DNA from: Verrucomicrobiia bacterium
Lineage (GTDB): Bacteria; Verrucomicrobiota; Verrucomicrobiia; Opitutales; Opitutaceae
Direction of reading: 5' to 3'
Length of the DNA: 7,819 nt
Assembly (NCBI GenBank): GCA_030424825.1
Contig: JAUHWE010000195.1
Location: 1-7,819, forward strand
The position numbers and the translations under genes were made by a program. Shown here in pieces: positions 4,929-7,819 of the stretch (its first letter is position 1; every line of letters starts with the position of its first letter). The notes under the pieces are model-generated. The model saw only the letters and a program-made list of their open reading frames with translations. It was not told the DNA's origin and did not search any database.

Positions 4929-7625
4929 CTATCTCGTCCGGAAGCTTTCCGAATCGATTAGGTCGAGAAGCAAATCCTTAAAGCCTTCCTCGTTCTCGAT
5001 ATTATTCCTCACGATCGCACCGATCACTTTTCGGTCACTATAGTTCATGGATCGACCGGTGGCATAAGTGAGGAGCTTTTCAGAAAGGCACTCTGCGAAA
5101 GGTGTTATGTCATTCACAAGAAATGCTTTCAAATCGCGCACATCTCTCAGTACCGTGCCGTCTGGCAAGACCCCGTTCGTCTCTACGGGAAGGCCTTCGT
5201 TTGATTTGTCTTTGGAATTTCCCGACAAATCTGGGTAGTAAGTACGCCATCGGCCAATCGGATCGAAAGACTCGAAGACAAATCCAATCGGATCGATTTT
5301 CTTATGGCACCCCGCACAAGAGTCTTCCGACATATGGGCCGCAAGCATCTCGCGAGGCGTTTCTGCCTTGGTGGTATCAGGTGTCAAAGCGGGAACCGCA
5401 TCCGGAGGATCACGTGGCCGATCTCCCAGAATATTCTCGAGCATCCATACACCGCGGACGACCGGTTGCGTATCGACACCATTGGCAGTGGCTGTCATCA
5501 CCCCCGCCATACCCAGGATTCCTCCGAATCGGCCTCCCTTCTCAAACTCCACTCGTTCCATTTTTTTCCGACCGCTGCCTTTCCCCATCGATAGCTCGTA
5601 CACATAGGTCCCAATCGATTCGTTAGTGTAAGTAAAATCTGGATCTATGAATTCCACTACGGATCGATTCGAATCAAGCATCTCTTTGAAAAAGAGGTTG
5701 GGTTCCTGGATGAGGGAATCCCTTTCGTCGTCCCCGTATTTGAATTTTTTTGGATTTGGGAAAAGCGTCTTGTCCGGAACAAGCTGATCCAAGGCAGTCA
5801 GGTCCAACCACTGGTCGAGAAAGCTCTCCACAAAGGTATCCCTTTCTTTCGAATTCAAGAGACGTGCGGCTTGGGTACGTAGCTCAAAAGGTTCTAATAG
5901 CGCTCCCGTACTCGCAGCTTCGTAAAGCATTGCATCCGGAGGTCGTGATGTGAGAAAGTAAGACAATCGAGAGGCTAAGTCATAGGCATCTAGTGAACCG
6001 GATTCAAATCCTCGATACAGGAAGTAGGGCGATGTCAGAGCGGTTCGAAACGCGAGATGCAATCCATCCTCAAGTCGGCCGGACAAGTCGCGTTCCGCTT
6101 CGATCATTCGCAGATATTCATTTCTTATCGAATCGTCAACGGGACGACGAAACGCACTTGGGAGAAAGTCGCTCAGAAACTTCTCGACAGCTCCTTCAAT
6201 AGCCGCCCCATCTCTATGACCAAACAACTGACCACCCTTCTTCTTCCAATACAGATCTTCCTGGCCATCAGCCAGTTCGATCGGACCATAAGCCACCGCT
6301 CTGTGCACATCCAAAGCCGGGCCTTCTTCGAATTGCTTGTATTGTAGCACTTCTGTTGTCAGTCGAAGGTTCTTGATCACCAACGCGACGAGTTCGTCCA
6401 AGGGCTCTCCTTCCGGTGCCTCGGGAAGAAGCTCGGATTTCATTAGGGCTTTCAACCGTTCCCATCCGATGCGGCCTCTCTCTACGACCCCGTCTGCTTG
6501 TTTATAAGCTGAAGCCAGCAGAGGCTCTTTCTGAAAAAGCTCTTTCACGTGCGCCCTGAGCTTCTCTCTATCCTCAGACAGGGACGAGTTGCCATACCGG
6601 ATCGCAATCGTCTCGCCCCTTTCAAGCAGCGTTTCGAAGGTGTACACTCTGCGAGTTGACCCGTTGATTTCGAATTCATTCAACAAACGAATGGTGTCGA
6701 TCCGCTGCCCTGGCGCCTCTACTGCATCCACTGCATGAATACTGCAAGTAATCGATTCACCTAATGGTGCATTAAAAGCTGACAACTCTAGTTCAATTTG
6801 GTAGACTCCTGTCACTGTCGCTTCGAATTTACTGGGCCAAGTCGCACTGGCCGCGATCGCTTCGGAACTCGAAACGATCCGCATCGCATCATCAATGAGC
6901 AGACCCGATGAGTAGGCGTAGGTAAAATCAGATGCTTTCAAATTAGAACGCGTCGGCTCGACCGATTTTCGTATTGGCGGAAAGAACTTCTCAGCCAAAT
7001 CAGTCGCGACTTCGGAATATGACTGCATGAGAGCTCCCGACATGGGGAGTGCTTCACTTTGGTTGTCGAATCCATGCGACTCGCCATCGATCGGAAAGCT
7101 ATCGGGAAGATCGTATTCAATATCCAGTAGAGAATTGATACTATTCACGTATTCGCGCCGATTAAGTCGGCGAATCATGGTACCGCCAATGGGAGAATTC
7201 CGTGCCAACGATTCATCGAGCCAATCAATAAGCTGCTCCCGCTCGCCCGCAGATGGTTGCCGCTTCTTTTCAGGAGGCATCTCGCCTGAACGGAGCACAC
7301 TTATCGCGCGTTCCCATATATCGAGCCGCTCCTTTTGCTCCCAATTGATCGAAAGCGCCTCTAGACTGATCTCCCCTTTTCTTTCAATGTCGTCGTGGCA
7401 ATCGAGACAATAGGTTTCGAGTAGGGAGTATTCTATATCTGGGATCGTTTCTGAAGTAGTGCCAATTATTTGGCCCGATGCCAGAGCCATAAAAGCCAAA
7501 AAAGAAAGCGGGAGTAGCAGGGTCGGCGCCTGTGGTGGGCCCCGATGGCAAGGATTTCTTAGGCTACGCGGCACAGCGCAAGCGCTGGCCCTACGAGGAC
7601 GATTCAACAACCCCAATTTGAACAT
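4929..7625 (-). CDS. Secreted PSCyt/DUF1592-family protein with two CxxCH motifs
   Basis: An 898-aa exported protein of the planctomycete-type cytochrome family. Order seen: odd N-terminal extension (9-33), hydrophobic signal (about 34-49), PSCyt1-like segment with C73-L-D-C-H77 and SGEMPP (113-118), DUF1587 near 150-215 (RRLNRREYVNSINSLLDIE), a beta-rich, carbohydrate-binding-like stretch near 235-345, DUF1595 near 480-540 (FLPSAFRRPVDD, TSPYFLYRG), DUF1592 near 545-670 (LASRLSYFLTSRPPD, FLDQWLDL), DUF1588 near 697-795 (ANGVDTQPVVRGVWMLENILG, C770-A-G-C-H774, KIDPIGFVFESFD) and DUF1585 near 820-895 (ECLSEKLLTYATGRSM). CxxCH motifs normally hold covalent haem c, and Met116 could be an axial ligand; haem binding here is not proved. 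The reaction is unknown. The start lies 2 bases after the DUF1552 stop, so the two are probably translated together. Family names are from memory of motifs; borders are approximate. Confidence 0.9.
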   Translation of the reverse strand: MFKLGLLNRPRRASACAVPRSLRNPCHRGPPQAPTLLLPLSFLAFMALASGQIIGTTSETIPDIEYSLLETYCLDCHDDIERKGEISLEALSINWEQKERLDIWERAISVLRSGEMPPEKKRQPSAGEREQLIDWLDESLARNSPIGGTMIRRLNRREYVNSINSLLDIEYDLPDSFPIDGESHGFDNQSEALPMSGALMQSYSEVATDLAEKFFPPIRKSVEPTRSNLKASDFTYAYSSGLLIDDAMRIVSSSEAIAASATWPSKFEATVTGVYQIELELSAFNAPLGESITCSIHAVDAVEAPGQRIDTIRLLNEFEINGSTRRVYTFETLLERGETIAIRYGNSSLSEDREKLRAHVKELFQKEPLLASAYKQADGVVERGRIGWERLKALMKSELLPEAPEGEPLDELVALVIKNLRLTTEVLQYKQFEEGPALDVHRAVAYGPIELADGQEDLYWKKKGGQLFGHRDGAAIEGAVEKFLSDFLPSAFRRPVDDSIRNEYLRMIEAERDLSGRLEDGLHLAFRTALTSPYFLYRGFESGSLDAYDLASRLSYFLTSRPPDAMLYEAASTGALLEPFELRTQAARLLNSKERDTFVESFLDQWLDLTALDQLVPDKTLFPNPKKFKYGDDERDSLIQEPNLFFKEMLDSNRSVVEFIDPDFTYTNESIGTYVYELSMGKGSGRKKMERVEFEKGGRFGGILGMAGVMTATANGVDTQPVVRGVWMLENILGDRPRDPPDAVPALTPDTTKAETPREMLAAHMSEDSCAGCHKKIDPIGFVFESFDPIGRWRTYYPDLSGNSKDKSNEGLPVETNGVLPDGTVLRDVRDLKAFLVNDITPFAECLSEKLLTYATGRSMNYSDRKVIGAIVRNNIENEEGFKDLLLDLIDSESFRTR
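7570..7595 (-). repeat. REP-like hairpin inside the DUF1592 coding region
   Basis: On the minus strand CGTAG (7595-7591) is followed directly by GGC-CAGCGC-TT-GCGCTG-T-GCC (7590-7570), a nine-pair palindrome with one bulged base. This GTAG-plus-hairpin layout matches REP units and the right arm of the element at 1475-1556. It is read in frame as residues 11-18 or so of the DUF1592 protein (RRASACAV). The hairpin could collapse to a CTTG tetraloop on five pairs. The unusual sequence may extend to about 7527 (through RNPCHRGPPQAP). Structure is certain; belonging to a dispersed family is inferred. Confidence 0.7.
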
Positions 7626-7627
7626 GA

Positions 7628-7819
7628 TTAAACCAAATACTGGTTCATGTTTCGGTTGGCATTGGAAAACTGGTCGCGTTCGATTCCCATCTGCTGGAGC
7701 ATCGTAATATAAAGATCGCCCAACAACGGAGCGTCCGGGCGATCCCGATCGATTGCAAGATGAGACCCGTGCTTCAATCCCCCACCGGCTAGGAATACGG
7801 GTAGATTCGCATTGGAGTG
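7628..7819 (-). CDS. DUF1552 family protein, C-terminal end (partial)
   Basis: The last 63 residues of a gene that begins beyond the right edge; TAA at 7630-7628. The peptide runs HSNANLPVFLAGGGLKHG, then a basic and acidic linker, then LLGDLYITMLQQMGIERDQF and ends NMNQYLV. The pattern N-x-P-x-x-x-A-G-G-x-x-K-x-G followed by L-x-x-x-M-L-Q-x-M-G is the C-terminus I know from DUF1552 proteins, which regularly stand next to DUF1592/DUF1588/DUF1585 proteins, as here with a 2-base gap. DUF1501 proteins, relatives of sulfatases, end in a somewhat similar way but usually pair with DUF1549/DUF1553 genes. Function is unknown; members usually carry an export signal, which cannot be seen in this fragment. 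Confidence 0.82.
   Translation of the reverse strand, partial: HSNANLPVFLAGGGLKHGSHLAIDRDRPDAPLLGDLYITMLQQMGIERDQFSNANRNMNQYLV

Follow-up and report, generated by a model that had tools for sequence, protein, structure and literature searches.

The stretch of DNA considered here (the window) comprises positions 1 to 7,819 of contig JAUHWE010000195.1 in assembly GCA_030424825.1, the 5.04 Mb, 811-contig genome (here G000) of an uncultured bacterium related to Opitutales. Its minus strand carries the gene of an 898-residue DUF1592/PSD4-type cytochrome-like protein, and the region coding for its predicted signal peptide contains a pair of repetitive extragenic palindromes (REPs) that is read in frame. 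The pair consists of the following parts.

7566..7595, minus strand: intact REP arm of family A, CGTAGGGCCAGCGCTTGCGCTGTGCCGCGT, which codes for RRASACAVPR (called from consensus match and copy number)
7545..7565, minus strand: spacer of 21 nt between the REP arms (ordinary pairs of the host have spacers too)
7514..7544 (approx.), plus strand: decayed inverted REP arm with GTAG at 7514-7517 (19/26 ungapped over 7519-7544)

The core of the intact arm, CGTAGGGCCAGCGCTTGCGC, lies at 7576-7595 on the minus strand. Its GTAG tag (7591-7594, minus strand), which starts at +32 of the gene, adjoins a stem of nine pairs composed of six and three pairs with a one-base bulge (GGC-CAGCGC-TT-GCGCTG-T-GCC). 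The Cys/Arg/Pro-rich stretch, the GTAG and the nine-pair palindrome described in an earlier note on this DNA are all present in the sequence. The reverse complement of 7566-7595 agrees with the majority consensus of 128 host REP arms at 30/30 positions. The opposite arm was missed by fixed REP patterns; its score of 19/26 was reached by 35 of 5000 dinucleotide shuffles and the predicted RNA fold has it paired to the left arm, while the same right arm in orthologue P0008 barely exceeds the shuffled range (30 vs 29). With this decayed partner the window element is a REP pair, and it measures 81 nt from tag to tag against 69-88 nt in 35 listed host pairs. Residues 11-38 of the DUF1592 protein are the in-frame reading of the pair, making this copy intragenic and not extragenic. 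The earlier note had proposed that one captured REP unit accounts for residues 9-33. The REP origin of the segment stands, with the 30-base arm and its decayed inverted partner moving the extent to residues 11-38 and replacing the single unit by two inverted arms.

The 20-base core of family A occurs in the host genome at 15 exact sites and at 168 sites when up to three mismatches are allowed, as opposed to one site in a reversed control. The genome search proposed in the earlier note therefore places the element in a dispersed GTAG-REP family, and the motif is not unique. A chance resemblance to REPs was ruled out because of the 30/30 arm match and this copy number. Sites of a 19-base A core were found in 11/11 genomes of the genus, from 2 (G005) to 292 (G009; reversed control 14). 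As G001, G005 and G008 hardly exceed the control (2-3 sites vs 1-2), the core is clearly present in only 8/11. Three further GTAG-tagged families were recognized, with reversed controls of 0 in the genomes named: B (142 sites in G000, 58 in G006), C (122 in G006, 56 in G001) and D (94 in G009).

REP-associated tyrosine transposases (RAYTs) are held to mobilise REP pairs. Among 30 Y1-transposase loci of the genus, two are flanked by REPs on both sides: a RAYT gene of G009 lies between family A pairs and one of G001 between family C REPs (1 to 5 mismatches). Both proteins exceed the cut-off of the NCBI model NF047646 for REP-associated tyrosine transposases (82 and 101 vs 80 bits). At the G009 locus L340 (1396-2049), the RAYT stop codon (1975-1977) falls within the GTAG tag of the family A pair behind the gene.

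The surroundings of the REP pair in the window are as follows.

4929..7625, minus strand: gene of the DUF1592/PSD4-type cytochrome-like protein, 898 aa (open reading frame list and Pfam)
7623..7625, minus strand: ATG start codon of this gene, 2 nt after the stop of the preceding gene (from the sequence)
7476..7520, minus strand: predicted hydrophobic core of the signal peptide, LLLPLSFLAFMALAS (by eye from the translation)
7628..7819, minus strand: 3' end of the upstream gene, ending in MNQYLV and a stop and cut by the window end (from the sequence; putative DUF1552, a label taken from the earlier note)

The Pfam domains of the 898-residue protein are DUF1592 (PSD4), DUF1588, DUF1587, DUF1585, DUF1595 and PSCyt1; the feature list for the same protein also names PSD2, PSD3, PSD5, PSCyt1 and PSCyt3. 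The right REP arm overlaps the first residues of the predicted hydrophobic core. The REP peptide has a net charge of +5; the basic n-region, the core and the cleavage site were judged by eye. No Shine-Dalgarno-like stretch was seen by eye before the ATG. In the predicted fold of 7595-7655 the ATG is base-paired to the final codons of the upstream gene, which possibly forms a coupling hairpin.

An orthologue of the window gene is present in 11/11 genomes of the genus, its own included. Their DNA was scored for REPs against 60 shuffles each and the protein rows against 40 shuffles each. A two-arm REP was found in the DUF1592 n-region of eight genomes and a weak remnant in one, and none was recognized in the other two. 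The REP is of family A in G000, of family C in G003, G010 and G005, and of family B in G004 and G002, while G001 and G008 carry a decayed C arm together with a D pair. Both arms beat the 60 shuffles in the seven REP-bearing genomes besides G000, in which the left arm did so and the right was tested separately. The half-arm of G006 is level with its shuffles (0.74 vs 0.74); G009 (marginal, 0.68 vs 0.64) and G007 (none) were not recognized as carrying a REP. An insertion confined to the window is ruled out by these REP pairs at the same place in orthologues, and an assembly error or contig-end artefact is unlikely since G010, which bears its own C pair there, is a one-contig genome.

At the protein level, 16/35 rows scored above their own shuffles, namely 15 of those read as REP-bearing and P0016. 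In the REP-bearing rows the arms lie at repeated offsets, and examples of scores against the shuffled maximum are 51/26 for the window protein, 43 and 39/27 for P0009, and 48 and 37/26 for P0017. The window segment is common to P0006 and P0008 above the shuffled range, and others carry a different REP pair there. A decayed form in P0003-P0005 (22) falls within the shuffled range, as does P0021 (22); these were counted as weak. Short ordinary signal peptides are found in P0014 (73% identical) and in most of the more distant P0025-P0035, of which P0026 and P0034 appear cut at the N-terminus. The earlier note had expected orthologues to run straight from the start to the hydrophobic core. Such REP-free relatives exist and bear out an in-frame capture between start codon and core, and the segment itself is found in some orthologues, P0006 and P0008. 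Its occurrence as protein in distant genera, which the note had named as speaking against a REP, was not found among the orthologues compared, where only close relatives share it.

A tree of the mature region was calculated for 39 rows, with REP types assigned by us and clade groups named after the tree had been seen. The sister of the window protein, P0002 (support 94/98), carries family B. The C-bearing P0009-P0013 join P0003-P0007 (100/100), whose N-termini are A-like, P0007 being called too short to show. Parsimony required eight changes of REP type over 36 rows (without P0007, P0015 and P0016) and seven over 32 rows when the weak calls were dropped as well. A single clade was rejected for the C rows (p = 1e-8) and for the B rows (p = 9.6e-4). 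Taken together, the tree and the type changes mean that REPs of other families were repeatedly inserted, or repeatedly overwrote one another, at one place.

Overwriting would require a single old REP pair in the DUF1592 n-region, later replaced by gene conversion, i.e., few insertions and many conversions. It finds support in the A and B elements, which begin at the same place, +32 (window, L020, L024), and in a hybrid pair of the host genome (L057, 1761-1844), one of whose arms is of family B and the other of family A. Nevertheless, the C pair begins at +25 in another reading frame (GTA|GGG vs xGT|AGG), the D pair of G001 and G008 follows a decayed C arm, and the REP-free P0014 is placed between bearers on the tree. 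We consider conversion from one old pair rather unlikely. As an observation in its own right, the hybrid pair points to recombination or conversion between REP families.

DUF1592 paralogues also have a REP pair in the n-region in G009, G005, G006 and G003. The n-region of three other paralogues (L030, L034 and L035, from G007, G002 and G004) shows a palindrome of GTAGCGGCC type, GTAGCGGCCGATCT type or a related one. It scored as none of families A-D and perhaps represents a fifth REP family.

The clearest case among unrelated secreted proteins is that of an outer-membrane efflux protein (OEP), matched in 10/11 genomes with eight readable N-termini. The G004 copy, which is cut, and the G006 relative (49% identical, its motif not found) were left out. 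A family A pair occupies the n-region in one common frame in G000, G003, G010 and G009, with an arm identity of 0.79-1.00; in G003 and G010 the left tag has decayed to CTAG. The OEP of G001 has a C pair upstream and an A-arm remnant (0.68), and the N-termini of G005, G007 and G002 are REP-free. In the seven OEPs besides G001, GGAGG is followed after exactly 7 nt by the start codon, and any REP comes after that start. The conserved PDT(F/L)DL lies 59-65 residues from the start where a REP is present and 29-47 where it is not (G001 apart). Because occupied and empty OEPs have the same GGAGG, 7-nt spacing and start ahead of the REP, these sequences speak for translation through it, a matter that PMC3733652 had not settled for N-terminal REPs. 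Between G000 and G003, the changes over the whole OEP n-region favour third codon positions (counts of 15, 16 and 33).

How widespread such captures are was estimated by a census of sampled stretches, amounting to ~256 kb of G000, ~239 kb of G009 and ~111 kb of G006 with 233 REP units. The stretches were taken around the first 100 of the 168 A sites, around family D sites of G009, and at 40 exact C sites of G006. The coding score used passes 89% of long open reading frame windows and 12% of other frames; the window gene itself falls below its cut. Secretory status and real captures were called by eye. In this sample the REPs lie mostly outside coding regions, with 29/233 units in the N-terminal class (in frame with a coding-like stretch behind), one of them also in the C-terminal class on the other strand. 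By the census criterion no unit (0/233) was a mid-gene capture, weak-score spans (such as L271 and L198) being set aside.

Eleven of the 29 N-terminal units have no start codon before the REP and 18 have one. Five of these 18 are without a Pfam match (L046, L069, L197, L269, L286) and may not be genes; L046 and L269 are among four units lacking a start in or behind the REP, and neither appears secreted. For four of the other 13 a start behind the REP is likely (DUF1501, DUF4399, DoxX and a metallophosphatase). A start before or inside the pair, at least possibly, was found for two OEPs (families A and C), a DUF4440 lipoprotein, a ceramidase-like protein, two near-identical aldose-epimerase-like genes, a DUF1592 paralogue, a metallophosphatase and a DUF7133 protein, the last being ambiguous because a TTG follows the pair. 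L050 and L224 were assigned by likeness to L056 and the window and not by Pfam. To the eye, the proteins with a start before or inside the REP look exported. G006 had been predicted beforehand to show n-region and not mid-gene captures. Its 42 units gave three of the N-terminal class and no mid-gene capture; L332 is a clear n-region capture and the other two have a start behind the REP. In the G010 relative of the DUF4440 protein (L376) an in-frame TAA interrupts the reading, perhaps marking a pseudogene. In G009, the right REP arm of L215 (1490-1568) reads ATGGCGCGAGCGCCAGCCCTACG in the frame of an apparently secreted metallophosphatase, and this REP may supply both the start codon and the basic n-region. 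A bolder proposition, which we put forward only tentatively, is that n-regions are the preferred coding niche of REP pairs, which supply, replace and nest n-regions across the secretome of the genus.

On this evidence we regard it as probable that residues 11-38 are a REP pair of a dispersed family, likely inserted in frame by a RAYT, and that the window is one case of recurrent n-region captures in the genus, by at least four REP families (A-D) in this gene of different lineages and also in unrelated secreted genes. The spreading REPs likely rewrote the front ends of secreted proteins repeatedly, as relatives hold different REP pairs at the same spot. The process may be pictured as follows. 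RAYT-driven spread would scatter REP pairs over gene junctions. Of the three ways to read through a pair, two are often free of stops and mostly yield basic peptides. An n-region presumably demands little beyond an open frame and some positive charge, so that an in-frame pair would survive there that would ruin a folded domain. With the start codon anchored by its own signals, either the nearness of the upstream stop or a Shine-Dalgarno sequence, the insert would become an n-region extension of ~24-30 residues, longer where two elements are nested.

Several observations weigh against this picture. The ratio of non-synonymous to synonymous divergence (pN/pS) of the DUF1592 n-region is 0.37-2.94 (10 gene pairs; an 11th undefined) vs 0.12-0.29 for the mature part, and within the 27 REP codons of the OEP changes are not clearly more frequent at third positions (e.g., 6, 8, 8). 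The charge per 25 residues is 3.39 for REP readings and 3.37 for shuffled REPs. Ordinary pairs are open in random frames at 0.41-0.42 in G000 and G009 and at 0.20 in G006, so one in-frame capture by itself is no rarity; a reading frame that takes TAG as a codon hardly ever stays open. Codon 18, in the left arm of the window, is an in-frame GTG, by which the first part of the pair might be untranslated, and in P0002, L362 and L278 a start codon after the REP possibly makes the REP a leader. P0016, read as REP-free, scores 25 vs a shuffled maximum of 24. Moreover, only two of the 30 Y1-transposase loci of the genus have REPs on both sides, and none of the five matches in the host genome has a REP in the flanking stretches of up to 1.5 kb on either side; the RAYT link drawn in the earlier note holds in two relatives (G009 with family A, G001 with family C) and not near its own loci.

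Two expectations were given up on these grounds. A basic charge peculiar to REPs was rejected since shuffled REPs are equally basic, and a coding proof by dN/dS failed, the REP segment being under little amino-acid constraint. The sole gap in the REP part of close gene pairs is 9 nt. In view of the little constraint at the amino-acid level, tolerance would seem to fit the inserts better than a selected function.

An alternative proposal is that the REP is an untranslated leader and that the true start lies downstream, the annotation being wrong. Besides the GTG in the window and the ATG or TTG after the REP in P0002, L362 and L278, it draws on the substitutions spread across codon positions in the REP segment, on L207, L233, L296 and L321 with a likely start behind the REP, and on the misannotation argued for several species in PMC3733652. 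Nevertheless, the window offers after its REP merely a TTG and an ATG, both within the hydrophobic core, and L224 and L229 have no ATG, GTG or TTG from the REP to 25 codons behind it. The OEP start signal upstream of the REP is common to bearers and non-bearers, and DUF1592 starts are kept close to the upstream stop, at 2-21 nt in 10/11 orthologues measured (starts chosen by us; G009 outside the measurement). A leader role is thus improbable.

It has similarly low probability that the REP hairpin is kept for a function in the mRNA, such as tuning initiation or protecting the upstream message. In 8/8 overlapping gene pairs the repeat codons have diverged less at synonymous sites than the mature gene does on average (pS 0.00-0.32 vs 0.15-0.73), the fraction of mature windows equally low being 0.0015-0.08, with one of these pairs, L034/L035, representing an element untyped as REP. 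This leaves room for a role at the nucleotide level, and a paired change of C-G to A-T was noticed by eye in the right arm of L017 vs L015. Total nucleotide divergence in the REP segment is nevertheless about that of the mature gene in 6/8 gene pairs and lower in two, a REP is not recognized there in 2/11 genomes, and the 156-nt RNA around the start codon of the window gene does not exceed its shuffles in stability (z -1.07). Given this fold, and a GTAG that begins at +32, the damping of translation initiation by the hairpin that the earlier note had suggested was not borne out. The same is true of its suggested uncoupling from the DUF1552 gene, as the start stays 2-21 nt behind the DUF1552 stop in 10 orthologues.

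The portions of the literature considered here describe closely related systems. Intragenic REPs are known, most in Opitutus terrae, and dimers or groups that code for 20-30 residues make up over half of the intragenic inserts (PMC3733652). Di Nocera 2013 suspected misannotation for most N-terminal REPs and stressed DNA-repair and other genes (PMC3733652). As described in PMC3733652 and by Bertels and Rainey 2011 (PMC3116915), GTAG REPs and REPINs are like the present elements in their GTAG tag, short stem, inverted pairs, high copy number, several families per genome, RAYT genes flanked by REPs, and intragenic copies. Unlike those of PMC3733652, as far as its cited part goes, the present REPs lie in signal-peptide n-regions of secreted proteins, recur in one gene with different families, and are supported by orthologues that lack a REP and share the start signal. 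The recB genes of X. campestris and X. oryzae hold different REPs at about the same coding site (PMC3733652, in part); there it is a DNA-repair gene in two species, here four families at one site of a signal peptide over a genus. Rickettsia palindromic elements are likewise palindromic mobile DNA fused in frame into many unrelated genes, but the section of PMC10969869 drawn upon gives them ~150 bp, another host and metabolic genes; they are set apart by this description and not by sequence. No paper on REPs in signal peptides was present among the literature matches listed, which mostly do not cover subscription journals. What is new is the recurrent capture in one n-region by different REP families; intragenic REPs as such were already known, Opitutales included.

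The occupied and empty OEP orthologues make it testable whether a mobile palindrome becomes part of a protein, and start-codon calls in REP-rich genomes are not simply to be trimmed so as to exclude REPs. If a mobile palindrome does become part of a protein, signal peptides would be the place where selfish repeats and proteins meet with the least harm, and a route by which n-regions lengthen and change. If n-regions are indeed the preferred coding niche of REP pairs, a mobile non-coding repeat would be a renewable source of front ends for secretion signals.

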